Assembly (NCBI GenBank): GCA_005656395.1
Contig: SRSI01000073.1
Coordinates: forward strand, 434,001 to 498,000
DNA length: 64,000 nucleotides
Origin: Strongyloides papillosus
Taxonomy: Eukaryota > Nematoda > Chromadorea > Rhabditida > Strongyloididae
Reading direction: 5' to 3'
Shown here piece after piece: positions 7,646-52,290 of the stretch. The position numbers and the translations under genes are program-made. Below the pieces are notes generated by a model. The model worked only from the letters and a program-made list of their open reading frames with translations, did not search any database and had not been told where the DNA came from. Position 1 is the first letter of the stretch. Every line of letters begins with the position of its first letter.

Positions 7646-8690
7646 CTACATTACTCTAAAAAATAGTTTAAATCCACCACTAAAAAATAATAAATTGTAG
7701 TATAAGATAACATGGTAATCTTTAGAAAGGAAAATAGTTCTTGGATTTTTCCCACAAAATAATTCTCCAGTAAGCGTTTTATCAGGTAAGAGTTTAACTT
7801 CCGAACAGTTTGAAAATTTGCAAACTTTTGAACCAGATGTAACAATAATATACTCAAATTTTAACATAATTTTTTTACCTATGACTGTTCTTATATGATA
7901 AATACATCTTTTAGATCCTTTAACTTCAAGTTTTTGTAACTTCTTTAAAACTACAATATCTGATTGACCACAGCTTCTTAAAGGAGGAGCAATTTTTTCA
8001 CAAAACTGACTAGTAAAACCATCAACACAAAACGACTACAATTTTTTGGACTTTGATAGGAACCGTGTTGACAATATAGATATAAGGTATTTTTGCAAAT
8101 GTTTGCACAATGATAAAGATTTAATGCTTTGATATCATTAAATACAAGTTTATCTAAATGACCAAGTGTTTTGGTGTATAGAAAATTTTTTGGCAAGATT
8201 GTATAATTGCCATTTTTAGAGTGTGCTCGCACGTCTTCATGTAACAAAGATCCATAATCAAATAGTATACCTAATGTATTTCAATGTTTTGATTTTACAA
8301 CTGAGAATCATCACGATACCCCCGACGAATATTTTTTGGAAATATGTACAGATGCTCATTTCTATCTATTCTACTATGTTCATGGAAAAATCCTAATGCA
8401 TGTAAAATTTCATGTTGGATTTTTTGAATTCTCATGCACTCATCTCCTAAACTTACAATTTGCCAGGTTTTCATACCTTGCTTTCCTAATTGTGAGTAAC
8501 AACCATTTCCTTTATAAAAAATAATCCCTGATTTAGTTTCAATGGTCCCTGGAATTTCTTTAAATGTTAAACATGTTTCGGCTTGTAATTCAGCCAATGT
8601 CGCCCTGACCATAACAGCGTTAACACCATTTTCAATATAATATAATAATGGAAACTCCTATTTTATTTCTTTTGCCTTTTAATTTTTCTC
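7646..8690 (-). pseudogene. Astacin metalloprotease pseudogene (intact zinc motif, frameshifted)
   Basis: Remains of a secreted astacin (M12A) with catalytic, EGF-like and CUB parts. The catalytic piece (about 8660-8295) keeps the full zinc signature HEILHALGFFHEHSRIDRN. The frame then breaks: the Met-turn region continues in another frame (8270-8010) as FDYGSLLHED, where the usual Met-turn SxMHY is lost. A second break inside the EGF-like segment (about 8015-8040) shifts to a third frame that carries the CUB domain to the stop at 7646. A further frame change near 8660 separates the RNKI mature start from the catalytic domain. No plausible intron explains these shifts; the gap at 8250-8290 would give only a 28-nt intron and still the wrong frame. 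At least three frameshifts make this a pseudogene unless the assembly is poor. It contrasts with the 29.7-44.7 kb family, which has open frames but lost ligands. Confidence 0.8.
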
Positions 8691-16743: not shown

Positions 16744-16902
16744 TGTTAGCTAAAAGCCAGTTTAGCTTATCTATTGATGATGGCATAATAATAATATAAA
16801 TAATATAATTTATTAAAAGGCTAGTTAAGAAGAGAGACTACAATATATATAATATTTTATATATTTAAAATATGAATAACTATATATGCATATTATGCAA
16901 CA
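16744..16902 (-). repeat. 3' LTR (159 bp)
   Basis: Direct repeat identical to 20795-20953, beginning TGTTAGC and ending GCAACA on the plus strand. It supplies the last codons and the stop of the polyprotein frame (stop at 16893). Confidence 0.95.
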
Positions 16903-29752: not shown

Positions 29753-30934
29753 TTATGGAACTTGCATAAATAATACTCTTATTTTGTATGCTTTGTTAGC
29801 ATAATTCGAATGGAGTACCATGCGATTACCTTGTGAAGTAATTCTAACCGGCTTAAAATTGGGGCAAATAATAGCACCACCAACACACAATGTTTTTCTG
29901 TATAAAACCTCCAAATTCTCATCATTGCTACACTTAAGATGTGGTGTCATATTACGGAAGAAAAATATCATTAATTTTATTCTATATCCTGGCTTTGTTT
30001 CGAAAATAAAGGAGCAGTTTCCACCTAGATTAAGAGTACGTCTTGAGAAGAGTGGCTTTACATTAAATTTATTGATTCTCGAGCAATGTTGCTTATTTAA
30101 TACGAAATATTGACACTTAGGACCATAGAAAAATGGTAAACATTTGCATACCCCAGGAACTATAGGATACCCATTATTAAGACATTGTGTATGCTTCATT
30201 ATTATTGGATTTGTGCAATACTTGAGATTTAGGAGTTTAGCATCATTAAAACTAAGATGATTAGTCTTGCCTATTGAATATTTCATCAATTTATCTTTAA
30301 CTACAAAAGTTTTTAATCCATGTATTGCATATTCAGTATTTGTAAAGTGCATAATAGATCTATAGTCGTATTCTGTATTATAAGTGGTTACTTTGAGGAT
30401 ATTGTTTGTTAGGAATAAGGGCAAAAACAGTGGTAATATATTATGCTTATTAATAGTTATATATTTGTCTCTATCGAATCTATTGTGTTCATAATCAACC
30501 CCTAAAGCTCGTAAAACTTCTCTGACAGTCTTTCCAATATCTTGATGAACAATAGATACATATATTGTATGATAAGAATTTCTATCTTTTCCTAATTTAG
30601 TTGTATAATGTGCACCCCAATCAAAATATAAATCAGCATGTTCGAGTGATGGTGCTCTTACAAATTTGAAACATGTCTCTTTTTGAATTCTAATTAAAGC
30701 GAGCTCTATGAATTTATGTGATACTTTTGAATTTACAAAGAATAATAAGCTTGTTATTGTCCATTTATACTTTTCACCATTTAATATATCGTTTTTTTGT
30801 CTCTGTACAAAATAATTACCAACAGATGATGTATTCTGCAAAAATCTTTACAATTTTGTTGAAGTTAAACTTACATAAAATTCAAAAGCATTGGTGGAAC
30901 TAAAAATTAGGCAAAGTATTATAATTAATATCAT
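29753..30934 (-). CDS. Astacin-like pseudo-protease 1 (zinc ligands lost)
   Basis: 380-aa secreted protein: exon 1, 30934-30875 (60 nt, 20-residue signal peptide), phase-0 intron, exon 2, 30835-29753. The order is signal peptide, astacin-fold domain (about 40-220), EGF-like Cys cluster (CLNNGYPIVPGVCKCLPFF) and CUB domain. The astacin signature at about 125-143 reads REVLRALGVDYEHNRFDRD: the three zinc histidines of HExxHxxGxxHE are Arg, Arg and Tyr, while the catalytic-base Glu and the RxDR tail remain. The Met-turn is kept (YDYRSIMHF), but its following Tyr is Phe. With no zinc ligands proteolysis is not expected. This is the most diverged intact member (no KR processing site before the domain). 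What it binds is unknown. Confidence 0.9.
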
Positions 30935-31787
30935 GATTTGATGTAGTATAATTTATTTATAGATGAGTATTTATATATGAGTAAAATAGATAATTATTTG
31001 ATGTATTTTTTAATTGCGAAAGAAATTTTAACAAATATTGTGCTTATAGACGAGTGAAAACTTTAAAGTTTGTTTTTAATTGTACACAAGATAAAAAATA
31101 GTTTATATTTAATCAACAGGTACAATAAAATAGAACAGAATACATACAAGTATGAATAAGCAGGATATAATTAAGACCATCTGAATATAAGATAGTATAA
31201 CTAAAATTTCGTACAGTTATCAGATCTTTCAGCTTATTGTAAAACAAAGTTAATTATCATAAGTAAGATAAATAGATCAACAAATAAAATATTAAAAAAA
31301 ATATAATAGTTAAAATAAAATGATATACCAAAAAAGTGGTTTAAATATGAAAATAAATTGCTAATTCAAATCTGATAGCTTAAATATCAAATAGAATAAA
31401 TATTCAAGAAATAATATAAGGGGATTTTAAAATAGTGATTCTTCTAGGTTTCAGATCAAAGAACCTTAGAGATTAAAGATTAAATGCAATATTCGATAAT
31501 GTGTGATATTTTTATTGATGCATGAACTATACTTTTTTTTAAAACATCAAATAAATTGTAGGATAAAAATTACTCATGATAATTGATCAATAATATTTTA
31601 TTTCATTACAATTTGTTCATTTTACATTATAATTATTTAACATTTTTGCATTTCAATGTGACAAGAAGTTTTCCGTGAAAAAAAATATCATAACAAAATC
31701 TTTTATTTTTAATTACTTATTTTTGTATGAAAGGTTAGTTTTATAGCTTTATTCAATAATTTTTAGTTGCAAAAATATTCATTCTTT
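30935..31787. other. Intergenic spacer of pseudo-astacin array
   Basis: AT-rich spacer with the promoter of copy 1 at its left end. No gene seen. Confidence 0.5.
30968..30977 (-). promoter_or_regulatory. TATA-like box of pseudo-astacin 1
   Basis: TATATAAATA on the minus strand, 34 nt before the ATG; the next gene has the same element at 35 nt. Confidence 0.4.
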
Positions 31788-32981
31788 TTAAAATATTTGA
31801 CTATAATATATTTTAAACCTATAGTTATCCATATTATATCGCGTATGAAGTATTATCAAATTTGAATGTGATCTAAACACATAGGGTTTTCTTCGAGGAC
31901 ATATCATAGTACCACTCACTGAATAGTCCCTCATATATCTCACTTCAATATGCTGAAATTCGTTACAAATACGTTTTCTAAGCGCATAGCCTTCAAAACG
32001 CAAAAATAGTAGGACTTTCCGACCTTCTTTGGCTTTAATAAGATAATAACAGTTTTTATTTGCTATTAGTAAGCTTTTGGATGGTATTTTTTTGGCATAG
32101 AAAACATTTCTGCTAGTGCAATAGTGAAAGTTTGGTATAAAGTGTTGACATCTGTTTCCGTCGAAATAAGGTAAGCAATAGCAAAATGTAGTACTTATAC
32201 CAGTAGGGTACCCGTAGTGGAGGCATTTTCCTCTTCGTACAGCTATTAGACTTAAACAATATGCTAAGTTAACAAGTTTGGCATCATTAAAAGAGAGATC
32301 TTTAGCTTTTCCCATCGCTTGTTCAACTAACCAATCTTCACTCTTTGATTTAATACATTGTGCTCTGTTAAGACATAATTCTTTGGAGCTAAAGTGCATT
32401 AATGATCTGTAATCATATCCAAGGCCAAATGTATTTACAATTGCAGAAGATAATTTGGCATATAGAGGTAAATATTTTTGAATTATGCCATTTTTAAGAA
32501 TGATAAGATAATTATCTCTATCGGGTCTATTATGCTCGTAATCAAATCCAAGGGCACGTAATGTTTCTCGGGCAATTTTTGCAGGCATCATACTTTCTTT
32601 TGGTATATAGATTTTGTGTGGATCTCTACCTTGTTTACCTAAATAAGTTAAATAGGAAGGACCTGGTTGATAAATAAAATTAACTTTACTTCTTTTTTTG
32701 GTTTTTTTAAATTTAAGACATGTATATTTCTCGATTATTATGTGAGCGACTTCAATTGGACGTTGTTCTAAGTGAAAACTAACAAAATAATAAAATGTAG
32801 TCCCATCCCAAAGATAACTTTTATCTATCATTACAGATCTTTTTTCTCTATAGTTTAGAGATACATTTGGCTGCATGAGATTCTTAAATATAAAAATTTT
32901 TTGAAAACATTTTTAACTTACGTTTAATTGTGAAGCTGTAATAAAGTTAAAAAGCAAGTAAAATACTACAATTAATATCAT
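31788..32981 (-). CDS. Astacin-like pseudo-protease 2 (zinc ligands lost)
   Basis: 384 aa: exon 1, 32981-32922 (60 nt, signal peptide), a 39-nt phase-0 intron, exon 2, 32882-31788. A basic REKR site near residue 33, just before the astacin domain, is placed like the propeptide cleavage site of the family. Signature at about 125-143: RETLRALGFDYEHNRPDRD, again Arg/Arg/Tyr for the three zinc His. The Met-turn is YDYRSLMHF; an extra CLNRAQC cysteine pair follows it. EGF-like segment: CLHYGYPTGISTTFCYCLPYF; the C-terminal CUB domain ends at the stop. The two Cys that form the second disulfide of active astacins, before the zinc helix, are absent. Its closest relatives are copies 3 to 6. Confidence 0.92.
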
Positions 32982-33521
32982 TGATCTAATGATTAATAAA
33001 TTATTAATAAATGATCATTTATATACAATTAATATATTTGTTATTTGATTAATTGTTCAATCGTTTAATGAAGCCTGTTAATAATTGTATTTACATAATT
33101 GAGTACATCAAATAATGTTATTATTTAAAAAGATTTCTAGATATATTTTTAAGTATAAATTATTCATAATAATCGATACATATTTATCGATTGAATCTAT
33201 GTCAAAAAAAAGATATTTGCTTTACAGTTCCATATGCAGTCTATACAAGTTTAAAACTAGGAGTATGGCTTAATAACTACTTAAGTTATGACATTTTTTA
33301 GAATAAACAAACCAAATTGTAACAATTAACATTAAATATAAATACAAGTAAATTATAGTCTTTTAATAATTTTAATATTGAAATTGGCAAGATTTTTTAT
33401 CAAAAGACTTAAAGAAGAAAATATTCAGAACAAATGATTTATTTTATTCTTTTTGTAATACGAATATATTTTAATAATTTGTTTTTTGTCTATTAGTTAT
33501 TAAAAATATTTATTGTTTATA
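32982..33521. other. Intergenic spacer of pseudo-astacin array
   Basis: AT-rich, no gene; holds the promoter of copy 2. Confidence 0.5.
33016..33025 (-). promoter_or_regulatory. TATA-like box of pseudo-astacin 2
   Basis: TATATAAATG on the minus strand, 35 nt before the ATG. Confidence 0.4.
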
Positions 33522-34716
33522 TTATATTTCATGATAATATATGGTAAACTCATAATATTTTATATCATATTTAGAATGAATTATTATCATGTTTGATTCC
33601 GATTTAAATGAATAATAAGAAGCCAAAGGGCACACTAATTTGCCTGTTACACTAAAGTCTTTCTTGAATCTTATTTCTAAATGTTGATTTTCGTTACAAA
33701 CGTGAGTATTAAGTGCAAAACGCGAAAATTCTATATATAGCATAATTTGTTTTCCTTCACTAGCTTTGATAAAATAATAGCAATCTCTTCGTGCTTTTAA
33801 GGTTACTTTAGTTATTCGCTCATTGGCATAAAAAACATTTGGATTAGTACAATACTCAAAATTTGTCGTAAATCGTTGGCATTTTTTTCCTTCGAAATAA
33901 GGTAAGCAATAGCATCTGGTTTTTGCTAAACCCAGAGGAAACCCATAATTAAGACACCGTGATTTTCTAATTAGTATTAAACTTATGCAATATGCCAAGT
34001 TAACAAGTTTGGCATCATTAAAAGAAAGATCAGTAGTTTTTCCCATGGCTAAATCAACTAATGGATCCTTGTTTTTAGATTTAATACATTGCGTAGAATA
34101 ATGACATAGTTCTTTAGATCCATAGTGCATAATTGATCTGTAATCATAGCTAAGCCCATATGTATTAACGGCTTTTGGAGATTTTTTGGCATATAAAGGC
34201 AAATATCTAGCGAGTATATTATTTTTTATAATAGAAATATATATATCTCTATCAGGTCTATTGTGCTCATAGTCGAAACCTAGTGCACGTAGTGTTTCTC
34301 GAGCAATTTTTCCATGGTGCATGTCTCCTCTTGGTACAAAAATTTTTTGGGGAAAATCACCTTCTTTGCCTAAATGAGTGCTATACATGGGGCCTGCATT
34401 GTAAATTAAACTAGCTCTTTTTTTATTGAAGACTCTACTGAATCTAAGGCATGTGGATTTCTCAATCTTTACAAGAGCAACTATAATAATAGAATAATTT
34501 AAATTTAAATCTCTGCTAATATAATATGGAAAAATATGACTTTTCCATTTAAATTTTTGATTTCGTATAACAGCTCTTTTTTCTCTCTGATTCAACGTTA
34601 CATTTGATTGAAAAAAATTCTAAAATATACAAAAAATTCTTATATATTAAACTTACATTTAATTCTGAAGCAATAATAAAATTAAAAGACAAGTAAAACA
34701 ATGTAATCAGCAGCAT
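33522..34716 (-). CDS. Astacin-like pseudo-protease 3 (zinc ligands lost)
   Basis: 385 aa: exon 1, 34716-34657 (60 nt signal peptide, MLLITLFYLSFNFIIA...), phase-0 intron, exon 2, 34619-33522. REKRAV processing-type site near residue 32. Signature at about 127-145: RETLRALGFDYEHNRPDRD. The Met-turn is YDYRSIMHYG, the only intact copy that keeps the Tyr normally next to the Met-turn His. CHYSTQC pair, EGF-like CLNYGFPLGLAKTRCYCLPYF and a full CUB domain follow. Codons for the replaced ligands differ synonymously from the other copies (CGA, CGT, TAT here), so the change is held at protein level. Secreted non-enzymatic binding protein by inference. Confidence 0.92.
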
Positions 34717-36338
34717 TGATTAATAATAGACGATCTGTTAACAAAAATTTGTGTTTTGGTTAACATCTGCTACGTGAAGTTTATCCACGAATACTATTTA
34801 TAGATGACAGCTACCAAATAAATTAGAGATTAAATAATCTCATTTTATTGTGACAATTGTTTATTTAAATATTATATATTTATAAATTTTTTATTTTCAC
34901 TTTTGAAATATTTAAAAATTTAGTATTTGATTAAATAATGTTCACTTATTAGAAAATTGATAACTATCATTAACTCTTTCATGACCAAAAATTTTCCTGT
35001 TTGTAGTACACACTCTGAGAAAAGAGACATTTGCTTGTCCATAGGTAAGCAAAATGGCATTTTTTTAAGATACAAAATATGGACAAACGAAAAAAATTGA
35101 TATTTGTTTTGTACTAACATAATTATATAGTTTAACTACACGTTTTTATGATTTTCTCAAAAAAAAGAAAACTAATTAATTCATTTTTTAATAAAGCAAG
35201 AGCATTGCATTCCCGACGAATGCACTGCCATCATTAATCACCGTATATAGGAGATGCATACAAACAGTTTACAAATCAAATTTGTAAAAATTTACTTACC
35301 AAATTTTGTTTTAATAAAAATGTATGCTGTTTCACTTGTCTACGGATATCCCTTTACACAAGCAAAATTGCACTTTAAAAAGGAAAAAATATAGATAACC
35401 ATGGACAAGCGAATGTTCACCGTCTCAATCAAAATACAAGTTTGATTGATCGTATGAACCAAGTGATTTCGTATTGTACGAATCTGAGGAAAATTCTTAG
35501 GTGGCACATGAAAGTGAATTTTCAAATAATCGAAATAGTTGTTCACAATTCCCACATATTTTATGCTACCTAGATTTCAAAAAAATACCCTTAAAAAATT
35601 TAGGAAAGAAATCATGTAAAAATTTAATGAAGAAAGAGAGCCTTACTCACCCAAAAAAATAAGAAAAAAATTCTTATTCTATTGCTCCATAAATCTTAAA
35701 AAAATAAAAAGGTAGCAATGTAACTCAACGTAAAAGATGTGTCGTATGTGCAAAATCAAATATTCGCATGAATGCTATCTTATTACTGCAAACCATGTCT
35801 CAATAAGTTTCCATTGTGCATAGATAAGTGTTTTTGTAAATATCATTAAGAAAATCACTAATTTTTTAGGCTGCTTTCAAAATAATATTTATTTTATTTC
35901 CTTAACTTTACTTGTAGAAGTGGCATTATTTTTTGAACGTTCTAGTATTTTAAATTTTTTAAAATCTGATTCATTAATTATTTTACGTGTATAATTTTTG
36001 CAATTTTACAACATTTTTATTTTAGATTTTAATATTCACCAAAAAATAAATCACGGGACGAAACAATTTTTTAAATTTTTTTAAATTTTATTTAAAATTT
36101 TTATTTATTATTTTAATTTCTTTTTTCACTTCTTTTTTTAATATAAATATTTTATATCACTAAAAATAACGTTATTCTAAAATTGTCTCTCTTTAGTATA
36201 AATTACTACTGCGGATTAGCATTTTTGTTAGTGATGCATATACGTGTCATCATATCGAGAAAGAGTTAATAAATTTTATATTAAATTCCTTCGTAGATTT
36301 CTAGTGTTTTCTTCTTATCAAAATAATTAATAATTGCA
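34717..36338. other. Intergenic spacer with a 410-bp inverted-repeat element
   Basis: 1.6 kb between copies 3 and 4. It contains the 35017-35426 MITE-like element; short ORFs at 34920-35120 and 35340-35555 fall inside or beside it and are not considered genes. A TATAAATAG (minus) lies at 34794-34802. Confidence 0.5.
35017..35426. mobile_element. 410-bp MITE-like element with 24-bp terminal inverted repeats
   Basis: The left end (35017-35040) and the reverse complement of the right end (35403-35426) match at most of 24 positions and share ACATT(T/C)GCTTGTCC. A second, 96-bp copy at 59646-59741 has the same ends, and the sequence just inside the ends is also alike. No coding capacity. The target duplication is not clear. 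Confidence 0.6.
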
Positions 36339-37537
36339 TTATAATAGTCTATAAGATAATTTTAATTCATAAATTTTTATTAGATATTTTGTATGAATGA
36401 TTGCTATGCCCGATTTTGATATGAACTTATAGGAATGACGTCGTGGGCAGATCAATGTACCAGAGACTGATATATCGTGTTTTTCTCTAATTTCAACGTG
36501 TTCTCTTATATTGCAAAGGCGTTTCCAAGGTCGATAATTTAGGAATTTTATTTCAAATCTAACTTTTCTACCATAATGAGCTTCAATAAAATAATAACAA
36601 TCTTTTTTCGCAGTTAAGACAACATCTTTTTTTATTCCTGATGCTATAAAAACGTTTTGTTTTCTGCAATAAGGAGGATTTTCTCTAGGATATTGACATA
36701 TATTCCCCGAAAAATAAGGTAAGCAAATGCATTGGTTTGGCAGTATACTGGGTGGATATCCGTAATGGTGGCATTTTTTCCTTTTAACAGCTATTAAACT
36801 TGTGCAATATTGAAGATTAACGAGTTTTGCATCATTAAATGTAAGCTCAGTAGCTCTTCCCATTGTTTCTTCAACCAACCAATCTCTTTTTCTCGTTTTT
36901 ATACATTTTCTACCCTTTTTACATAATTCATGAGCTGCAAAATGCATTACTGATCTGTAATCGTAGTTAAGATCAAATGCCTTGACGGTTGCTGGAGGTT
37001 TTTTATAAAATAGTGGCTTTACATCCATATGTAGATACTTGAATGAAATATAGAGATAGAAATCTCGATCAGGTCTATTATGCTCATAGTCAAATCCTAA
37101 GGCTCGTAATGTTTCTCGAGCAATTCTTGCAGGATCTTTGTCATGTTTTGGCACCATAATTTTATGCGGAAGTTTACCTCGATATCCTAAATTAGTTAAA
37201 TATATCGCACCAGGAATATATAAGATGTGAACAGATTTCCCATTAATTTTATGTACTCTTTTAAACTTTAGACAAGTACGTTGTTTAATCATTAGGAGAC
37301 CAAGTATAATAGTATCATCTTTTAATGAAGGATCAATATCATAAAAAAATGTAGCTGTATTCCATTTATATCTTGGATCTTGAAGTACAGCTCTTTTTTC
37401 TCTATGATTTATAAAAGCATTTATTTCTCTGGAATTCTAAAAGTACAAAATTATTTTTATAAAATCTTTAAACTTACAGTTAAAAAACAATTATTTAATA
37501 AGCTAAAAATTAGAAAAAATATTGTAATTATCACCAT
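36339..37537 (-). CDS. Astacin-like pseudo-protease 4 (zinc ligands lost)
   Basis: 385 aa: exon 1, 37537-37478 (60 nt signal peptide), phase-0 intron, exon 2, 37436-36339. REKRAV site near residue 34. Signature RETLRALGFDYEHNRPDRD with all three zinc His replaced (CGA, CGA, TAT codons). The Met-turn is YDYRSVMHF; CKKGRKC pair; EGF-like CHHYGYPPSILPNQCICLPYF; CUB domain with the RRHSYKF...AIIHTKY end. The two frames in the window that begin at an internal Met near 37292 miss the N-terminal 80 residues; the exon model restores them and matches the paralogues. Confidence 0.92.
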
Positions 37538-37574
37538 TGAAAATATGTGAGAAATAATTAATTAATAATAACCA

Positions 37575-37583
37575 ATTTAAATA
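37575..37583 (-). promoter_or_regulatory. TATA-like box of pseudo-astacin 4
   Basis: TATTTAAAT on the minus strand, 38 nt before the ATG. Confidence 0.3.
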
Positions 37584-37889
37584 CAGAAATAATATATTCA
37601 GTTGTTAGATATTTGTTTACATTTACTATGTAAAATTTTGACAAAAAATCTGTTTGATTACACGGTTATGTCAACAAATTGTAGATTAAAATTACTATCA
37701 GATATTTTGATAAGTGATTATTTACATATTATTTAATTTCAATTTTTTTAACGTTCCAATATCTAATTTATTAAATTTAATAATATTAACTTATAAAAAA
37801 TTAATGATTATCATTCTTAAATTTTTATTTAAAAGTTTTCATAAGTATCTAATGTTTGTTTGTTGGCAAAATATTTAGTTTATAATACA

Positions 37890-39311
37890 ATGTTTTGTAA
37901 TATAATCTTATATGGAATTTTTTTTTCATATTTTGTATGAATAATCACTAAATATGGTTCTCATACAAACCTATAAGATAGAAATTGTGAACATATTACT
38001 TTCCCACTCACAGAATAGTCAATTTTATCTCTTATTTCGACGTGCTCGAAATTATTGCAAAGACCATTCAATGATCGATATTCCAGAAATTCTATGTCAA
38101 ACCTAATTTTTTTGCCATGACTAGCTTCAATAAAATAATAATAGTCTTTTTTCGCAATTAAGACAGCTTTTTTTCTTACTCCTGATGCTAAAAAAACGTT
38201 TTGTTTTCTGCAATAAGCAAAATTGCTTCTTGGTAATTGACACAATTTCCCAGTAAAATAAGGTAAAACATGAAATTTATTTGCTCTTGTTCCTGATGGG
38301 TAATCATAGAGCAAACATTTTTTTCTCCCAATTTTTATTGTACCCAAGCAATATTGGAAATTAACAAGTTTTGCATCATTAAATGTAAGCTCTTTTGCTT
38401 TTCCAAAAGCAGTTTCAACTAATCTATTTCGTTTTTTTGTTCTTATACATTTGTTAAGCTTTCTTGCAAAATTCATTGGCTGCCAAATACATTACTGATC
38501 TATAATCGTAGTTGAGACCAAATATGTTAACAGTTGCTGGTGGTTTTCTGTAAAATAGTAATTTAAAATTCGGAAGTATATAGTGAAGAATGATCGTTTT
38601 CTTCGTAGGATTACAATCAAGGGGAATATAAATACCCTTAAAAAATGATTACCAGACAGTTCTGACTTCTACTAACCAGGCGGAAAAAACCCAATATATA
38701 TTGGGGTAAGTAATTAACTTATATATTTTTTCTTATTGTATCATTATAGTTTTAATTAACTAAATAAAGTTTATATTTTACTATTTACTTATTCACAGGT
38801 GTAAGTACCAACTTATTATTTGCTATATACTTTAATGAAATATCAAGATAGATATCTCTATCAGGCTTATTTTGTTCATAATCAAATTCTTATGCACGTA
38901 AAGTTTCTCGAGTAATTCTTGCAGGATCGTTATTATAATTAACACCATAATTCTATGGATAGTTTCACTACGTTTACATATAAAAGTAACATATATTGGA
39001 CCTGAAACATATAAGATGTCAACGTGATAACGAAATCTAGATGCTCTTTGAAAATTTAAACAAGTACATTGTTAGATCATCATATGACCGAGTTCAATAG
39101 CTTTATTTTTTATTGAAGACTGAACATTATAAAAAATATATTTTTGTTCCACTTATATTTAAAATCACGAACAACGGCTCTTTTTTCCCTATGATTTATT
39201 TCCACAGAATTATAAAAGTATAAAATTATTTTTTTAATAGTTAAAACCTACAGCTAAAAAACAAGTATTTAACAAATTTGAAATCAAATAAAATATTGTA
39301 ATTATTACCAT
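37890..39311 (-). pseudogene. Astacin-like pseudo-protease 5, broken copy with insertion
   Basis: Paralogue closest to copy 4. Exon 1 (39311-39252) and its GTAGGT donor survive. The signature is recognisable (RETLRA, stop, EFDYEQNKPDRD near 38905), so it already carried Arg/Arg/Tyr before it decayed. Lesions: a stop in the signature, frameshifts around 38470 between the Met-turn (YDYRSVMYL) and the next segment, a stop inside the CUB domain near 37961 with homologous sequence continuing after it, and an inserted block of about 225 bp at roughly 38575-38800. The open stretch 37961-38476 is only the C-terminal part. Confidence 0.85.
38575..38800. other. Unclassified ~225-bp insertion in pseudo-astacin 5
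   Basis: Sequence without counterpart in copies 1-4 or 6 at the same point of the catalytic domain. It contains a perfect 16-bp palindrome, CCCAATATATATTGGG (38690-38705). The ends are fuzzy and no clear terminal repeats or target duplication were found; probably a transposon fragment. Confidence 0.5.
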
Positions 39312-40617
39312 TTATCTATATGGGTAATGATTAATTAACAATAGGTAAATTAATATCAATTAATATACTTAGTTTGTTTAATAACTGATACATTAAAATG
39401 TAAAACTTTTAACAAAAAAATCTGTTTGTGCACGTAGATGTGTTTGATAATTTGCAGATTTAAAATACTTCCAGAAATGTGGTTATTGGCTATTAAAAAA
39501 TTATTTAATTTCAATTTTTTGAGTTACATTTCAACTACTCTAATTTTATACGTATAATACGATCTGCGTAATGCGAGATAAAACTTTTGGCATAATAAAT
39601 AGTACGAGGAAAAAAACTTGGTGCGGAAAATTCTGTACTACACTATCAGTGGTTTTATTTTTTTCAATCTTTTAATAACATATTCTTGAAATTTAGTTAT
39701 AACGGTAAGTTTTTTTTGGCATTTTAGACATGTTAAAATGAGTGTCTCATGTTGGTTATGAAAAGAAAATCCATCACTGCGCAGGGGAAGTTGAACGCTA
39801 TTACTCTTGTTAAAGATGTCGAGAACTCAGAAGTTGCTAGAAGATGTGGATTTTCTGAAATTCATATCAGATAATGGAGAAAACAGGAATCAAAATTTTT
39901 GCTTTGTAAAAAGAATTAACCATCATTTAGAAGTGGTGAGGCTAAATGGCTACAAATTGAAGTGAAACTTGTTGACTGGATTATAAATTGTCATAAAAAT
40001 GGCATTAAAATCAACATAGTCAAAATTAAAATACATGCACGAGGACTTGCACAGAAATGATCTATCCGTTAAACCAACAATGTCTGTAAGACAGAAATTT
40101 GTAGCTAAACACGTTTAGAAACTTATAGATTTTTAGTGCTTTATTTATCGTGAACTCGTTGACTAGATGCTGCAGATTTAGTTAACATGTTTCCAGAAAG
40201 ACGTTGATGATAAGTTGGATTTTTCAAGAGTAGAAAATAAATTGGAAAACTCTCATGTAGAGAATAAAATTATTATTCTTACAGAAATTGTTAACTTTGG
40301 CAATAAATTTTATAAAAAGTTGACATAAAACCAAGATTGAAATATTGTAACCCAATTTTTTTAAAAATTTCACATTTTACGCGTAAAATTAGGGTATTTA
40401 GATTTTTTTGCTAATTAAGCAATGTTTCTTCTATAAAAAAATCTATAACAATTTTCGTTCTATAATTTATTTACATTTCGAAATATGAATTAATTTATAT
40501 CATTTAGAAATAAAATAACATAGAAAAAATAAAAAATTTGTTTTCTACAATAAAGCTTTTTTAAATTAGATGCTTTAATTTATTTCTAACATTTATTTAT
40601 TGTCAAAATTAACGATA
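39312..40617. other. Intergenic with a transposase relic
   Basis: Spacer between copies 5 and 6. It contains the CENP-B/pogo-like relic at 39758-40065; the rest is AT-rich and non-coding. Confidence 0.5.
39758..40065 (+). pseudogene. Relic of a pogo/Tigger-like transposase (HTH region)
   Basis: Starts with MKRKSITAQGKLNAITLVKD, EVARRCGFSEIHIR: the first helix-turn-helix pattern of Tc5/pogo/Tigger-type transposases. After a stop the frame continues WRKQES and, after another, KWLQIEVKLVDWIINCHKNG, matching the second, CENP-B-type HTH. No catalytic DDE part follows. In-frame stops and truncation show a dead fragment. Family call is by pattern recognition. Confidence 0.5.
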
Positions 40618-41806
40618 TTAGAATCTTTTATAAGACAATCTTACTTTGAAACTTTTTTTCGAATTTTTTGTATGAATTATTACCGTATTTGATTCTGATA
40701 TAAATTTATAGGGTAACAATTTTGGACAAATCATAGTACCACTGACACTTATATCTTTGTTTCTAACTTCAATGTGCTCAAAATTATTGCAAAGACGATT
40801 CCATGGTCGATATCTTAAATATTTTATTTCGAACCTAATTCTTTCACCCTTACCAGCTCTGATAAAATAATAACAATCTTTTTTCGAAATTAAAATCGTT
40901 TCAAATTTTTTCCTTGAAGCAAAGAAAACGTTTTGCGTTCTACAATACTCATAATTTTTTCTAGGAGTTTCGCACAGTTCTCCCACAAAATAAGGCAAGC
41001 ATAAGCAAAATGTGGGTTTTAAATTCAAAGGATAACCAAAGTGTTTACATTTACTTCTTCTTACTACTAACAAACTTAAACAATACTGCAGGTTGGTAAG
41101 TTTTGCATCATTAAATGTTAGTTCATTTGCTTTTCCCAGAACTGATTCAACTAATGGATCTCGTTCTTTCGTTCTCATACATATTTTTTTCTTTTTGCAT
41201 GATTCTCCAATTGAAAAATGCATAATTGATCTATAATCGTAATTAAGACCAAATGTATTTACAAATTGGGGTGAATCTTTATAAAATAGTAACAAAAGAC
41301 TTGTAGGTATATTTAAAAATCTAACATCAAGATATTTATTCCTATCAGGTCTATTATGCTCATAATCTAGACCCAAAGCACGTAAAGTTTCTCGAGCAAC
41401 TTTACTAGGATCTGTAAAAACTCCTGGCACATAAATTTTATGTGGAGACTTAGAATGTTTGCCTAAATAGGTTACATACATTGGACCTCGAACATATAAA
41501 AGGTCCGGTTTTTGTTTTTCCAGTGTTCTTCTAAATTTTAAACAAGTAGATTTTGTTATCATTACGAGACCGAGAACAATCTTATCACTTCTTAATGACT
41601 TATCAACAGAATAAGAAAAAATATGTCGATTCCATCTATACTTTTCATCTCGAATTACAGCCCTCTTCTCTCGGTAATTTAAAGATACAACGTTTTCAGT
41701 AAAATTCTAAAATAAAAAAATATTTAAGATTCAATTTTAAACTTACTACTGAATAACAAGTAATCATAAAGCTAAAAATCAAATAAAGTGTTAAAGTTGG
41801 CTCCAT
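40618..41806 (-). CDS. Astacin-like pseudo-protease 6 (zinc ligands lost)
   Basis: 382 aa: exon 1, 41806-41747 (60 nt signal peptide), phase-0 intron, exon 2, 41706-40618. REKRAV site near residue 33. Signature RETLRALGLDYEHNRPDRN, with Arg, Arg, Tyr at the ligand positions and Leu for the usual Phe. The Met-turn is YDYRSIMHF; CKKKKIC pair; EGF-like CKHFGYPLNLKPTFCLCLPYF; CUB domain complete to the stop. The frame starting at 41562 would omit the signal peptide and domain start; the two-exon model agrees with the other copies in exon length and phase. Confidence 0.92.
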
Positions 41807-41843
41807 CGAATTTGTGGGAAATAATTTAAAAATAAAGATTATC

Positions 41844-41849
41844 TATATA
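41844..41849 (-). promoter_or_regulatory. TATA-like box of pseudo-astacin 6
   Basis: TATATA about 38 nt before the ATG. Confidence 0.3.
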
Positions 41850-42499
41850 CAGTTATTATATTTAAAATGTTCATGTATCATATATTAAAAATTATGAGCG
41901 ATCTTTTTGGACATGAGGCCAAGTTAAATAAATCATAAGATTAAAGAATGTCATGGTAATGGATCCATATTAAATATTTTAACTATAACATTGATAAGAA
42001 AAAGGTTATTAATTAATATAATCACAAGAAAAATTTTTCTATAAATTTTAAAATTAATAAAAACGTTCTCCAAAATAAATCTCGAGATATTATTTTTGTA
42101 CATAGTAATTTTAATGAACATTTAAGAATACATTTATTATAGTAAAAACGCAAAAAACTTTATCAGTAAACTACAAAAAAAGACATGTGAAATAATATTA
42201 ATAATATTTTTTAATTGTTAGAAAAATATGAGATTTTTTATTAATTTTTGAAATTATATAACTGGTGACCTGACATCTTTAATGTTTTAAAAAAGCATTA
42301 TTCCAAAGATAAAAAATTGTTGAAAGGTATTTACTTTTTTAGTCATAAATAACATTTTAATAATAAATAATAATAATAAAAAAATAACATATTCATAATT
42401 AGCGTAAAATTTTTGGTCTATTGATACCAATTTGTTAAAAATTGAAAAAAAAATTGTAGATAATTAATTATATCATATTTTTCTCAAAAACTAAAATTT

Positions 42500-42955
42500 C
42501 AAGAATCCGTTTCATGCGCTTGTAGAACAAATTTGTGGCTGCAGAATAAGATATCAACCATTTCTGTAGCTTATGTACACGTTTCAATAAATATTGTTAG
42601 AGTATCTTAGTCATGTTTAATAAAACAAGAAGAAAATATTAATATTTCAACAATAAAACAATATTTTAAAATTCTATCTCATACGTTTGTAAAACAAATT
42701 CTTGGCTAGGAAATAAGATATCAACCACTTCTGTAGCTCAAGTAGAGACTTCAATAAATATTTCTAAAGATTTTCAACTAAGTATATAAAAATTTTAAAA
42801 AAATTTATTTTTAATTTTTAACATGAATAATTTTCGCAATAAAATAAATTTTAAAAATCTGTTCTTTGCGTTTGTAGAACAAACAATTGGCTACAAAATG
42901 CGATTATAATCATCTCTGTATCTCAAGCACAGACTTTAATAAAAATTTTAATTCG
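42500..42955. repeat. Three tandemly spaced ~100-bp repeats
   Basis: Copies at about 42500-42600, 42671-42775 and 42853-42955 share a core: (C/G)TTTGTAGAACAAA..TTGGCT, AAATAAGATATCAACCA, TCTGTAGCTCAAG and CTTCAATAAATATT. The period is about 170-185 bp with unrelated AT-rich filler between. No reading frame is conserved across the copies. Each ends with AATAAA. Confidence 0.65.
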
Positions 42956-43569
42956 ATCACAAACAAATTTAGTTCAATAAAAAAATAATTGTTTGGCTAA
43001 ATGGTTTTTTGATTTTATTTCTGTAACAATTTTCTTAAGGCTTTATTGCTAATTAAAGATTTGTAATTAGCATATAATTATTTGTTTATTTTTGTAAATA
43101 TGGTAATAGCAAACAAATAAAAAACTGACGTAAAGACCATTTGAAATTTGTCACTGTAACTTTTATCCTAACAAGAAAGTTTTTTTACTTTATTTATTGA
43201 ATGTTAACAAACAACTTTTTTAAAATACTATTTTAAAAAAATTCTATATGTTTAAATTCTATATACTTGAAAATTTTTAGAAGATAATATTTATTTTAAA
43301 AATTTGACAAACTTATATGTCAGGTTGGTATATATAATGTAATTAAAAATTCGAACTATTATATTATCGAACAACATAACGTATTACAATTACTTTTAAT
43401 TAATCATTTCTATTTAGTGAATTATGAAAATAAATTCAATATTCCTAATCTATAATGAAGAATTCTAAAAAATTAAAATATATACGAATAAAATTTTTTA
43501 TTTTTTACCAAATTTATTTTTAATTACTTGTTTTTTAACAAATAAATTTTATATAAGCTTTTTTTACTC

Positions 43570-44725
43570 CTATTGCAACTCTTTATAACGTAATTCAATA
43601 TTATACCTTTTATATTCGTATTTTGTATGGATGATTATAATATTAGAATATGATCTATATTTGTAAGAATAAATATGAGGACAAATTAATGAACCTGAGA
43701 CTGATATATCTTTAAATCTCACCTCAATTTTCTCAAATTCATTGCAAACACGCCCAAAATATGATAAACGAGGAAATTTTACTTCTAAATAGATTTTTTT
43801 GGTTTAATAAAGTAAAAGCAATTTTGTCTTGCTAATAATGTAACTTTGTGTAATTTGTTTGAAGCATTAAAAATATTCGGTCTATTGCAATAATCATAAG
43901 TATTCATTGGTATTTGACATCTATTTCCAGTGGAATAGCGTAAACATATACATTGATTTTTGATTTGATATTTTTTGAAATGGATATCCAAAATTTAAGC
44001 ATTTTCTTAAATTTACTATTCTCATATTCAAGCAATATACTAGGTTGACAAGTTTGGCATAATTAAAAGCAAGATCTATTTTGTTACCCATTGATGTCTC
44101 AATTAATTTGTTTCCGCTTTTTGATCTAATACACTTTTTACGATATTCGCATAGTTCATGAGATCCAAAATGCATTATTGATCTGTATTCATAGTTGAGG
44201 TCGTACGTGTCTACTTTCTTTTCTGATTGTTTGAGAAATAATAAAAGAAGATTACCAGGTATGTATTTATATATAAAATCAAGCTAATGATTTCTATCAG
44301 GTCTATTGTGTTCGTAATCAAATCCCAAAGCACATAGAGTTTCTCGAGCAATCTTCCCAGCATGCATATCTTCCTTTGGTATAAGAATTTTATGCTGTAC
44401 AAATTTCTTTTTACCTAAATAAGTCAAATATATGCTACCAGATTTATAATAAAATTGCGCTTGGTCTTGCACATGTGTTATTACAAATTTTAAGCATGTG
44501 GATGCTTGAATAAGTGATGAGCATGAAGAATAGATTTTTCTCTTAATCGATGGTCAATGTAAAATGTGAATAAACGTCCAGACCACTTATTTTTATTACT
44601 GATTAAAGCTCTTTTCTCTAAAATTGAAATTTGTTTGATTTGAATTTTAAAATATTTTCTATATATTTAAAACTTACAATAGATATCAAAGTATTAATGC
44701 ATTTTACAAATATCAAAATAAACAT
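43570..44725 (-). pseudogene. Astacin-like pseudo-protease 7, broken copy
   Basis: Last, most decayed array member. Exon 1 (44725-44678, 48 nt rather than 60) keeps a GTAAG donor. Fragments in different frames cover the signature (RETLCALGFDYEHNRPDRN at about 44330: Arg, Cys, Tyr at ligand positions), the Met-turn region (44175 onwards), the EGF-like part (43991-43920) and the CUB end, which stops at 43570-43572. At least three frameshifts separate them. Confidence 0.85.
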
Positions 44726-44929: not shown

Positions 44930-46720
44930 AAATAAATAATAAAAATGTGCATTTTTATGAAATATAAAGTTCCTTCATTCAAAAATTATTAAACACATTT
45001 ATTAATGATTTTATATTTACTACGAATATTTTAAGAATTTTTCTTACTTATAACTAAACAATATTTAGAGGTTTGTTTTGTTGAGTTTTCAATCCTCCTT
45101 TTTTATTAGTATTAGAAGAGAAATTATTTAAACTAGTTTCTTTTTTTGATTTAAAATGTAGTAGATCTCTTAATGGCGAGCATAAAAATAAAACGGTATA
45201 AAATAAGCCAAAAGTCATCAAATCAACATTCCAGTAAGAAATTTCTTGAGCAATTATATCAACTAAATCACTTTCAACAGTTACAAAGTTAATGATTTTC
45301 CCCAAAGAGTATGCTACAACAATTAAATAAGTAAAAAAATTTATTATAGTGTATACAAACATTGAAATATTTTGAGAATTCTTTACATTCATTGTTTTGT
45401 AGTATTTTGCAAATTTTACTGATGAAATAATATTCATGATTGTTGAAAGCGCAAATATAGGAATATTAATAACAATTACGTAGACTATTATACAATAAAT
45501 TAAATCTAATGATTTAAATGTAACAAAATATCCTTTTTTAGATTTTAAATATTTATAATATGGGTGGAAAAAAGTTAATGCAATACCATAAATTAATCCA
45601 ACCAAAACTGTAATAGTAAGGCATATGACGATTTTTTTCTTCGAAAACCATATATTATATTTTAAGGGATAAACTAATGCAATAAATGTGTTCAAACTTG
45701 AAAATAAGGATACTCCATATATATTAGTATGGCATATTTCAAGAATAATATAGTAATATATAGCTATACCATCGTTTTCTTTATAGAAATCTCCCATAAT
45801 GTTCATCCTAGCAGCCCGACTGCAAAAAAACATTGAAATCATAAGAATTATATCACTGTATGATTTAAATAAAATCAAAGGAAAAAAGTTGTTATTATAA
45901 ATTGGATTTCTTTTGATTAGCATCTCATTGGTTAGCCGGATAACAAAAATGATCAGTAATATAATTGATGGAACAAAATAAGAGAACTGTATAATATCAA
46001 CAGTTGTTATCATAATTGTGTGAAAAACTTTTAAGAATACCTTATTATAAATATACAAGAATTGTAGTTTGGTTTTATGATACAAATAAATGAAATGTTC
46101 ACATAAATAAGAAATTTTCACATGAGCCTCAAATTTCTATTATTTAAAATATTTTTAAGAATGAATACAATTTTGTTTTGTTTTTTAATGAAAGTTTTTG
46201 TACATGGTTGATAGAGTAAGATAAATATTATTACTGTTATTTTTTGAAATTAAACATTATATTCATTAAATTGTATCAAAATAAGTTTATAATTTAAAAA
46301 TAAAAATATTTCTTCATATAATTATTCTTTTTTATATTTTTTATAAGACATTGAAAAAATTTATAGAATAAAAAACAATATTGTATTTGTTCTTGAGAAT
46401 AAATTACTGCTTAATAATAATATTTATTTTGAATATACAAAATATTGTTACAACAGACTTAAAGTATTTTTAATGAATTGAAGTACATGCTGAAGATAAT
46501 TTTGTGATTGATAATTGGTATAAATAATAAAGATTGTGTAAAAATGAGTTTATTTAACAATTTTTAAATAGATACAAACAACATTCTAAAAATTAATAAT
46601 TCTAGAATTATTATTTGTGGGTACTAAAGTCTAGACATTTGTATTTTAAAAATTTAATAATAATACTTGGATTTTAAAATAAATAAAATCCAATTTGAAT
46701 ATCAAATTGAAAAGGTTAGC
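44930..46720. repeat. Segmental duplication, copy 1 (7TM receptor unit)
   Basis: About 1.8 kb that matches 50510-52290 over the receptor gene and both flanks (for example the GTTCCTTCATTCAAAA block before the stop side and TTTTTGTACATGGTTGATAG past the ATG side). Boundaries are approximate. A third partial copy of the distal flank occurs at about 52390-52590. Confidence 0.75.
45054..46013 (-). CDS. Nematode 7TM chemoreceptor-like protein, copy 1
   Basis: 319-aa intronless seven-transmembrane protein. The ATG at 46013 (MITTVDIIQFSYFVPS) is chosen over an upstream GTG-initiated extension because the duplicate at 50642 starts at the matching Met and has the same length. Hydrophobic spans lie at about 8-30, 50-70, 90-120, 130-150, 175-200, 230-255 and 270-295. 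After TM3 the sequence SSLNTFIALVYPLKYNIWFS resembles the conserved IC2 region of nematode serpentine receptors (Srg superfamily, Srv-like). The C-terminal tail is short and polar. Expected role: ligand-sensing GPCR in sensory neurons; the subfamily is not certain. Confidence 0.8.
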   Translation of the reverse strand: MITTVDIIQFSYFVPSIILLIIFVIRLTNEMLIKRNPIYNNNFFPLILFKSYSDIILMISMFFCSRAARMNIMGDFYKENDGIAIYYYIILEICHTNIYGVSLFSSLNTFIALVYPLKYNIWFSKKKIVICLTITVLVGLIYGIALTFFHPYYKYLKSKKGYFVTFKSLDLIYCIIVYVIVINIPIFALSTIMNIISSVKFAKYYKTMNVKNSQNISMFVYTIINFFTYLIVVAYSLGKIINFVTVESDLVDIIAQEISYWNVDLMTFGLFYTVLFLCSPLRDLLHFKSKKETSLNNFSSNTNKKGGLKTQQNKPLNIV

Positions 46721-50509: not shown

Positions 50510-52290
50510 AAAATAAATAATAAAAAATTTTACTTCGTGAATTTTTATGAAAAAAAAAGTTCCTTCATTCAAAATTTACCAAACACATTTAATAACAACT
50601 TTATATTGATTACGAACATTTCAAGAATTTCTTTATATTAATTAAACAATAGTAAGAGTTTTGCTTTGTTGACTTTTCAATCGTTCATTTATATTAGTAC
50701 TAGAAGTAGCATTATTGTAACTAGTTTCTTCTATTGATTTAAAAAGTAGTAAATCTCTTAAGGGTGAGCATAAAAATAAAACGGTATAAAATAAACCAAA
50801 AGTCATCAAATCAATGTTCCAGTAGCGAACGATTTGAGCAATGCTGTCAACTAAATCATTTTGAAAAGTTACAAAGTTAAGGATTTTTCCAAAAGTGTAT
50901 GCTACAACAATTAAATAAGTAAAAAAACTTATTATAGTGTATACAAACATTGAAACATTTTGAGAATTCTTTACATTCATTGTTTTGTAGTATTTTGCAA
51001 ATTTTACTGATGAAATAATATTCATGATTGTTGAAAGCGCAAATATAGGAATATTAATGACAATTGAGAAAGCTATTGCACAATAAATTACATCTACTGA
51101 TTTAAATGTAATAATATATCCTTTTATAGATTCTGAATATCTATAATATGGATGGAAAAAAGCTATTGCGATTCCATAGATTGATCCAACAAAAAATGTA
51201 ATAGTAAGGCTTACAACGATTTTTTTTTTCGAAAACCATGTATTATATCGTAAGGGATAGACTAGTGCAATAAATGTGTTTAAACTTGAAAGTAAGGATA
51301 CTCCATATATATTAGTATAGCATATTTCAAAAATAATATAGTAATATATAGCTATACCATCGTTTTCTTTATAAAAATCTCCCATAATATTCATTCTAGC
51401 AGCTCGACTGCAAAAAAACATTGAAATCATAAGAATAATATCACTGTATGATTTAAACAAAATCAAAGGAAAAAAGTTGTTATTATAAATCGGATTTCTT
51501 TTGATTATCATCTCATTAGTTAAACGAATAACGAAGATGATTAGTAATATAATTGATGGAACAAAATAAGAAAATTGTATAATATCAACGGTTGTTACCA
51601 TAATAGTATGAAGAAAATAAATAAAAATACTTTATTTTAAATATTTCAGAATTGTAGTTTGGTTTTATGATACAAATTAATGAAATGTTTACATAAAAAA
51701 GAAATTTTCACATAAGCCTCAAATTTTTATTATTCAAAATATTTTTAAGAATTACTACAATTTTGTTTTTATTTTTAATGAAAGTTTTTGTACATGGTTG
51801 ATAGAGTAAGAAAAATATTATTACTGTTATTTTTTAAAATTAAGTATTATATTTGTTAATTGTATCAAAATAAATTTATAATTTTAAAATAAAAATAATT
51901 CTTTATATAATTATTCTTTTTATTTTTTTCATAAAACATTTATAGAATAAAAAACAATGTTGTATTTTGTTCTTGAGAATAGATTACTACTTAATAATAA
52001 TATTTACTTGGAATATACAGAATATTTTTACAACAGGCTTAAAGTATTTTTAATGAATTGTAGTACAGACTAAAAACGATTTCGTGATTGATAATTGGCA
52101 TATAAAATAAAGATTGTGATATTATTGAATTTATCTAACAATTTTTTAATAGATACAAAAAATATTTTGAAGACTAATCTAACAATATTATCTATAGAAA
52201 TTTATAAAGTCTAGACAATTGTATTTCAATAATTTAGTAGATTGTGTAGAATAAACCTAGATTTTAAATTGAATGAATCTAATTTGAATA
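50510..52290. repeat. Segmental duplication, copy 2 (7TM receptor unit)
   Basis: Counterpart of 44930-46720, same orientation; coding part highly similar, flanks moderately. Downstream, 52390-52590 repeats part of the distal flank a third time. Confidence 0.75.
50642..51601 (-). CDS. Nematode 7TM chemoreceptor-like protein, copy 2
   Basis: 319-aa paralogue of the 45054-46013 gene, roughly 85% identical by eye over the first 140 residues and diverging most in the loop after TM4 (YRYSESIKGYIITFKSVD) and the C-tail. Open throughout and the same length. Divergence concentrated in extracellular-type loops would suit ligand-specificity change; codon-level tests are not done here. Subfamily uncertain (Srg-superfamily-like). 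Confidence 0.8.
   Translation of the reverse strand: MVTTVDIIQFSYFVPSIILLIIFVIRLTNEMIIKRNPIYNNNFFPLILFKSYSDIILMISMFFCSRAARMNIMGDFYKENDGIAIYYYIIFEICYTNIYGVSLLSSLNTFIALVYPLRYNTWFSKKKIVVSLTITFFVGSIYGIAIAFFHPYYRYSESIKGYIITFKSVDVIYCAIAFSIVINIPIFALSTIMNIISSVKFAKYYKTMNVKNSQNVSMFVYTIISFFTYLIVVAYTFGKILNFVTFQNDLVDSIAQIVRYWNIDLMTFGLFYTVLFLCSPLRDLLLFKSIEETSYNNATSSTNINERLKSQQSKTLTIV

Follow-up and report, generated by a model that had tools for sequence, protein, structure and literature searches.

A conserved clade of predicted pseudoproteases within the astacin family of Strongyloides

A tandem cluster of altered astacin genes

The window analysed here is a 64,000-nucleotide stretch of Strongyloides papillosus contig SRSI01000073.1 (assembly GCA_005656395.1, positions 434,001 to 498,000 of the forward strand). 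It carries seven tandem astacin copies, all on the minus strand, in which R-E-x-x-R-x-x-G-x-x-Y-E (hereafter the RRY signature) replaces the canonical H-E-x-x-H-x-x-G-x-x-H-E. Five copies are open and two are broken. A six-frame scan of the window placed motif matches on the minus strand at 30470-30523, 32517-32570, 34248-34301, 37065-37118, 41341-41394 and 44293-44346. Five of these six matches, corresponding to the open copies, read R-E-x-L-R-A-L-G-x-D-Y-E-H, and the remaining one, in a broken copy, reads R-E-T-L-C (29.7-44.4 kb). A seventh motif, RETLRA*EFDYEQ, with a stop within it, lies in the other broken copy near 39 kb. On sequence grounds, the RRY proteins form an old, conserved clade of predicted pseudoproteases.

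All five open copies possess a short upstream 5' exon that encodes a hydrophobic signal-like peptide and ends with a GTAAGT donor. The same N-terminal peptide is found in the S. papillosus UniRef proteins corresponding to copies 1 (P0013) and 3 (P0006), and a close one in that corresponding to copy 2 (P0031). The astacin domain PF01400 is recognized in all five (E 8.6e-34 to 5.1e-21, 75.6-117.3 bits for a cut-off of 22.5). The preliminary description of this DNA had reported five intact, secreted astacin-EGF-CUB genes. The five open astacin frames stand, with signal-like peptides that predict secretion; the CUB domain is less clear-cut, since Pfam gives a weak match, below cut-off, in one of the five copies (E 5.5e-4), although CUB structures were retrieved by fold search.

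In copy 1, the main exon (29753-30835) encodes the astacin domain with REVLRALGVDYEH at 30470-30523 (PF01400 E 1.7e-29), followed by an EGF-like and CUB-like tail, and has RQKN at the maturation site where the four other open copies have REKR. Its acceptor was set by eye against P0013, to which the copy is 99.4% identical; identity to S. venezuelensis P0014 is 84.5%. The signal-like peptide is encoded at 30875-30934. Copy 2 (main exon 31788-32876 from the listed ATG, acceptor not pinned; 5' exon 32922-32981) carries RETLRALGFDYEH at 32517-32570 and MHF at the Met-turn, and is 88% identical to S. venezuelensis P0008. Copy 3 (33522-34619; 5' exon 34657-34716) has the same motif, RETLRALGFDYEH, at 34248-34301, retains MHY and has the best astacin score (E 8.6e-34); it is 99.7% identical to S. 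papillosus P0006. The open main-exon frames of copies 4 (36339-37436; 5' exon 37478-37537) and 6 (40618-41706; 5' exon 41747-41806) contain RETLRALGFDYEH at 37065-37118 and RETLRALGLDYEH at 41341-41394, respectively, both with MHF. For these two copies the listed ATGs are internal, and the frames extend to 37436 and 41706, thus taking in the R-E-K-R site. S. papillosus proteins match copies 1, 3 and 4 at 99.2-99.7% identity; for copy 6, identity to S. venezuelensis P0015 is 77.7%.

The two broken copies show Arg/Arg/Tyr and Arg/Cys/Tyr at the ligand positions, as had been read earlier. Copy 5 (37907-39270, ends approximate) is spread over several frames, with the stop inside its motif. The public S. 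papillosus protein P0001 (531 amino acids) corresponds to a copy-5-like piece fused to copy 4 and looks like an annotation artefact. Copy 7 (43579-44631) has 10 in-frame stops, with RETLCALGFDYEH at 44293-44346.

Distribution and origin of the RRY family

The assembly containing the window comprises 58.2 Mb in 79 contigs. When this genome was searched with the copy 2 protein, the 15 best matches comprised all seven window copies (five open, two broken), seven copies on C25 (700842-716351) and a single one on C75, giving at least 15 family members. The C25 copy at 705 kb shifts frame in its N-terminal part, so that 12 of the 15 are open. With S. ratti P0030 as the query, the best matches were the same places except for the two broken window copies, 13 in all. 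The next relatives, on C15 (1.09-1.11 Mb) and C48, have the canonical motif. Motif loss thus extends beyond the window cluster described at first, to the eight further family copies and to other astacins altered differently. One open copy elsewhere in the genome (L022) has also lost the catalytic Glu (replaced by Gly). A predicted R-[EK]-K-R maturation site is present in 11 of the 12 open genome copies, copy 1 being the exception. For one S. papillosus UniRef protein, P0010, identity to the window copies reaches no more than 58%, so family copy number may differ between strains.

The signature recurs in three other Strongyloides species. A profile search returned 35 proteins, 32 of which carry it: 13 from S. 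papillosus, 6 from S. venezuelensis, 12 from S. ratti and one S. stercoralis sequence cluster. Among these 32, Arg is found at position 92 in all, Glu at 93 in 31 (Gly in P0007), Arg at 96 in 29 and Tyr at 102 in all. The remaining three are P. trichosuri P0033 (RQTALSIGLVNQ) and two proteins retaining HExxHxxGxxH, one from S. venezuelensis and an Ancylostoma fragment. Database names designate 31 of the 32 family proteins as metalloendopeptidase or astacin-like metalloendopeptidase. Chance or reading error was ruled out by the motif being present in seven window copies, eight copies elsewhere in the genome and 32 of the 35 database proteins. None of the 32 family proteins, part of them without a true N-terminus, shows FxGD (the FXGDI aspartate switch) within residues 1-70. 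Two canonical paralogues also lack it in the stretch read, so its absence is not diagnostic, and loss of the prosegment was rejected as a hallmark of the family.

A tree was built from 93 astacin domains (of 104 rows, near-copies removed), excluding the motif columns and two Met-turn columns. Before that, we set aside rows shorter than 140 residues, P0032, P0035 and 13 duplicates among the S. papillosus UniRef proteins; neither tree nor codon analyses included broken copies 5 and 7. All 31 family rows fall on one side of a branch (support 100/98, 100% of 200 bootstrap trees). Both main branches of the family are represented in the window: one contains copies 2, 3, 4 and 6 with the C75 copy, the other copy 1 with the C25 copies, S. 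ratti and S. stercoralis. Moreover, four of the open window copies (1, 2, 3 and 6) have their own S. venezuelensis orthologue as partner in the tree, 78-88% identical and with the motif kept. As judged from the sequences, the RRY substitution is older than the duplications and has been kept since, as the preliminary description had proposed, and it is also older than the split of the four Strongyloides species. Genes with R-L-x-x-R...Y (C4) and R-L-x-x-H...L (C21) adjoin the clade, with supports of 97/65 and 97/93 and long branches. A stepwise loss of ligands starting with His92 to Arg would fit this placement, the length of the branches being kept in mind.

Other astacins of this genome have lost the canonical motif. 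Outside the window cluster, we counted at least 172 distinct astacin places, and 90 places (those of the window included) could be read well enough to be scored. Sixty-five are canonical at the four positions and 25 are not; the sample was partly picked by similarity to dead copies, so this proportion should not be read as a rate for the whole genome. Fourteen of the 25 belong to the RRY family (copy 7 included, copy 5 unscored). The other 11 comprise RLxxH...L (two near-identical contig copies), RLxxR...Y, QQxxR...Y, QQxxR...F, HAxxN...N, KKxxN...D, QMxxK...N and three that keep the His residues without the Glu. The last three (L071 and L072, C37:153464-162894; L052, C2:2391598) show HFxxH, HMxxH and HYxxH, and L071 and L072 adjoin the astacins with KKxxN and QMxxK. 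Tandem astacins at C45:136739 and 139040 (L078) carry QQILRTLGMYFEQ and QQVLRTLGMYYEQ, with a canonical neighbour at 141043. This pair again has Arg at the second ligand position and Tyr or Phe at the third, and stands apart from the RRY clade in the best tree.

A second pseudo-astacin lineage, RQTxLSxGLxxQ (P0033, P0036-P0038), is conserved between Parastrongyloides and three Strongyloides species. The search gave a single close relative each for S. ratti, S. venezuelensis and S. papillosus, and identity to P. trichosuri P0033 is 61%. Like the RRY clade, it has lost its ligands and has Arg at 92. Unlike the RRY clade, it has Gln in place of Glu93, Thr in place of the Met-turn Met and no Arg at 96, and its third position is Asn, Tyr or Arg. 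The best tree suggests several independent motif losses among the non-canonical astacins. However, approximately unbiased (AU) tests did not reject one clade uniting the 42 non-canonical rows (p 0.198), a grouping of RRY with P0033 (p 0.297) or one of the RRY clade with the C45 QQR pair (p 0.0996). Hence, the claim of independent origins was dropped, the AU tests being compatible with one clade.

Residue changes, predicted fold and selection

In active astacins, a Tyr of the Met-turn serves as a fourth protein ligand of zinc. Using crayfish astacin numbering, assigned by alignment, we compared 31 family rows with 51 canonical rows. In the family, His92 and His96 are replaced by Arg (31/31 and 29/31, respectively) and His102 by Tyr (31/31). 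Tyr149, the fourth ligand, has become Phe in 28 rows, remains Tyr in 2 and is Leu in 1; among the open window copies, only copy 3 keeps the Tyr, the other four having Phe. The loss of all three zinc ligands claimed earlier therefore applies throughout to the first and third, and mostly to the second, which stays His in 2 of the 32 proteins and is Tyr in 1; the fourth ligand had been overlooked. Beside the Met-turn, position 144 is Arg in 29 of the 31 family rows and Gly in 37 of the 51 canonical ones. Cys64 and Cys84 (disulfide numbering taken from part of an astacin review, PMC9848320) are Cys in 51/51 canonical rows and in 0/31 family rows, Cys64 being replaced by Tyr (26), Phe (4) or His (1). 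Two residues past Cys64, Ser is changed to Thr in all 31.

Much of the remaining domain is retained. Glu93 (30/31), Gly99, the Met-turn Met (30/31) and the Cys42 and Cys198 positions are kept, as are Glu103 and the Arg, Asp and Arg of the following xxRxDR (31/31 each); for the Glu, the Gly, the RxDR tail and the Met-turn, this agrees with the preliminary description. His115, Asp112 and His161 (alignment A1 numbering) are invariant over 13 rows. An AlphaFold2 model of copy 2 (m0a23323fb7f2) has the mature-astacin fold. The first residue past R-E-K-R aligns with residue 1 of mature astacin, and the predicted register matches that of mature structures.

We then considered the ratio of nonsynonymous to synonymous substitution rates (dN/dS, omega). 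A one-ratio codon model over 13 copies (C25:705 kb entered as its open piece) gave omega 0.204, and fixing omega at 1 (best of five kappa values) cost 380 log-likelihood units. The trees are long and saturated, which makes whole-tree omega a rough value; subsets and close pairs were also computed, and omega was 0.249 for the seven C25 copies and 0.173 for five copies of the other branch. Purifying selection thus acts on the RRY clade; relaxed selection was ruled out (0.20 vs 1), and dN/dS between copies is not near 1.

The synonymous codon differences noted earlier among the five open window copies are present (CGA/AGA at R92, CGT/CGA at R96, TAT/TAC at Y102). Over the 13 copies, these positions underwent at least three, three and two codon changes, respectively, and no amino-acid change. 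For comparison, the full columns taken together require 1607 codon changes, of which at least 1131 alter the amino acid. The chance of finding none in eight, calculated by hand, is about 6e-5, a figure that overstates the case because Arg has six codons. R92, Y102 and E93 rank among the slowest fifth of columns. Altogether, with the enzyme fold predicted to be conserved, catalytic residues lost and the sequences held under selection, the family qualifies as one of pseudoenzymes, its inactivity being predicted.

Elsewhere in the window, a canonical astacin motif, HEILHALGFFHEH, occurs on the minus strand at 8361-8414, in a frame that soon meets stops; it perhaps belongs to a broken or spliced astacin. 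At 16893-20837 (minus), a single open frame of 1314 amino acids resembles, by eye, a retroelement polyprotein, with stretches like those of a DTGS protease, a reverse transcriptase and an integrase. A pair of genes at 45054-46121 and 50642-51601 (minus), similar to each other, look like seven-transmembrane chemoreceptors, the first matching Srv (PF10323). On the plus strand, 61074-62618 encodes a Thr/Pro/Lys-rich repeat protein that looks secreted by eye, and 62685-63998 a prolyl oligopeptidase (PF02897, PF00326). Prolyl oligopeptidases are presented, in part of a study of the genus, as another family tied to parasitism in Strongyloides (PMC5979966).

A putative binding role and its relation to known systems

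The sequences lead us to propose, with a probability of about 0.72, that the RRY proteins are catalytically dead members of the astacin family and likely secreted binders, which most probably serve as decoys or compete for the ligands bound by active astacins of the parasite. Replacement of the zinc-site His residues by Arg, Arg and Tyr would abolish catalysis. Processing at the basic site and docking of the new N-terminus on Glu103 would likely be kept without catalysis, as the N-terminal register of the model matches that of mature astacin. Arg92 and Arg96 may occupy the former metal position. The net charge of the site would then be unchanged, since Zn2+ plus Glu and two Arg plus Glu both amount to +1. 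With this charge preserved, the cleft could still take acidic ligands of active astacins, such as the aspartate of an inhibitor or an acidic substrate loop, which would be held uncut. Candidate partners are the worm's own astacins, substrates from the host and host inhibitors (fetuin-B, for instance, is known to inhibit astacins). Among the possible binding roles, decoy binding of astacin ligands is the one we infer, as a further step; the preliminary description had already suggested a non-proteolytic role as decoy, inhibitor or binder. More tentatively, a sizeable share of the Strongyloides 'protease' expansion could form a non-proteolytic binding arsenal, in whose largest clade, the RRY family, the Arg-Glu-Arg-Tyr cluster and the new Met-turn Arg would replace zinc, keep the charge and catch, without cutting it, what active astacins bind (fetuin-B or other host inhibitors, acidic host substrates), leaving the active enzymes free; this wider proposal is possible, though we would not favour it as it stands.

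Several observations weigh against this main proposal of catalytically dead, secreted binders. Position 96 is variable, with His in P0030 and P0032 and Tyr in P0024. The basic maturation site is absent from copy 1 and from S. ratti P0018. In the copy 2 model, the predicted local distance difference test (pLDDT) score is below 50 for the first 12 residues and averages 65 for residues 11-20, which makes the N-terminal register the less certain part of the model. The salt-bridge and charge argument comes from general chemistry, not from model coordinates. As to selection, omega is 0.182 for the astacin domain and 0.246 for the EGF and CUB tail, so that the tail evolves only modestly faster; two canonical clades of the same genome gave 0.185 and 0.416, neither with a comparable gap between domain and tail. 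Nei-Gojobori (NG86) pairwise omega over the whole length is 0.29-0.50 in the eight pairs whose identity is about 60% or higher, every one of them on C25, with 0.50 and 0.32 for the two closest. Finally, turnover is high: of the seven copies in the window two are broken, and of the seven on C25 one.

Other explanations were weighed. The RRY proteins could be directed not at host molecules but at active astacins of the worm itself, secreted alongside them and controlling them either as partners or through competitive inhibition. Such a role, which we regard as doubtful, would be consistent with the conserved fold and predicted maturation and with the many canonical paralogues in the genome, and part of a 2024 review describes comparable roles for other pseudopeptidases (PMC11266112). 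However, no pairing of the family with one particular active paralogue was found, though none was tested, and the lineage-specific expansion, with 12 S. ratti sequence clusters and one of S. stercoralis, better suits an outward-facing role. It is rather unlikely that the family is purely structural or adhesive, the EGF and CUB domains binding while the old protease domain acts as a stable scaffold: the core fold is kept and the tail is indeed less constrained than the domain, but the place of R92, Y102 and E93, at the centre of the cleft, in the slowest fifth of columns would be left unexplained.

We consider it improbable that these are dying copies, in which catalysis was lost by drift and the surviving frames are recent duplicates heading for decay. 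Three of the 15 genome copies are broken (5, 7 and C25:705 kb, with its N-terminal frame change), copy 1 has lost its basic site and L022 its Glu93. Yet 12 copies are open, the signature is common to four species, omega is 0.20 (0.17 and 0.25 in subsets), S. venezuelensis orthologues at 78-88% identity retain the motif, and R92, R96 and Y102 remained unchanged through at least eight codon changes. Lastly, these proteins can hardly be hydrolases that still work in the old cleft with a different metal site or without metal: Glu93 is present in 31 of 32 and His115, Asp112 and His161 are invariant in 13 rows, but no member retains the first or third His, only 2 of 32 retain the second, most have lost the Tyr ligand, Glu93 is also lost in one open copy, and Arg and Tyr do not make an expected zinc site.

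The predicted loss of the zinc site bears on how the genus is described. The number of astacins in Strongyloides is currently read as the number of proteases used to invade skin and gut. Should a conserved subset be unable to bind zinc, these numbers and the database names would be wrong, and inhibitor or vaccine ideas based on 'astacin activity' would miss part of the family. The testable question would then be what the parasite gains from keeping, multiplying and processing dead proteases, and the charge-conserving Arg pair would offer a test case for the re-use of a metzincin cleft without metal. Pseudoenzymes are known as a kind; in literature searches, mostly of titles and abstracts, with key subscription papers beyond reach, no description of inactive, pseudo-, degenerate or non-catalytic astacins was found. 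A 2023 astacin review admitted, by the criteria in its accessible part, only intact-motif sequences (PMC9848320), a filter by which genes such as those of the RRY clade would stay hidden. A salmon-louse paper was rejected as a precedent, the eight astacins in the part consulted having canonical motifs (PMC10828956).

With active astacins (M12A; PF01400: crayfish astacin, meprins, BMP1, nematode NAS), the RRY clade shares the PF01400 match and the fold of the catalytic domain. It differs from them by H92R and H102Y throughout, by H96R and Y149F in most members, by the absence of Cys64-Cys84, by Arg at 144 and by its predicted inactivity. A second comparison is offered by the ADAM pseudometalloproteases (M12B: ADAM2, 7, 11, 18, 22, 23, 29, 32; C. 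elegans UNC-71), which the 2024 review of inactive metallopeptidases, in the part covering them, gives under M12 (PMC11266112). They are also metzincins with altered zinc motifs and a conserved Met-turn. However, they belong to another family, are membrane-bound and have a disintegrin domain, and the table in that part of the review has motifs such as QSLAQNLGIQWE and no Arg/Arg/Tyr (PMC11266112). Pfam detected no disintegrin domain in the five open window copies (Astacin, plus the weak CUB in one).

The closest context is the astacin expansion linked to parasitism in Strongyloides itself, with which the RRY clade shares the genus and the arrangement in tandem clusters. According to the published reports, as far as their accessible parts go, astacin genes are up-regulated in parasitic females of four Strongyloides species (PMC5979966) and astacins are present in Strongyloides secretions (PMC6327390). 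There, the expansion is treated as a protease arsenal; in contrast, the RRY clade and several other genes of this genome lack the zinc motif.

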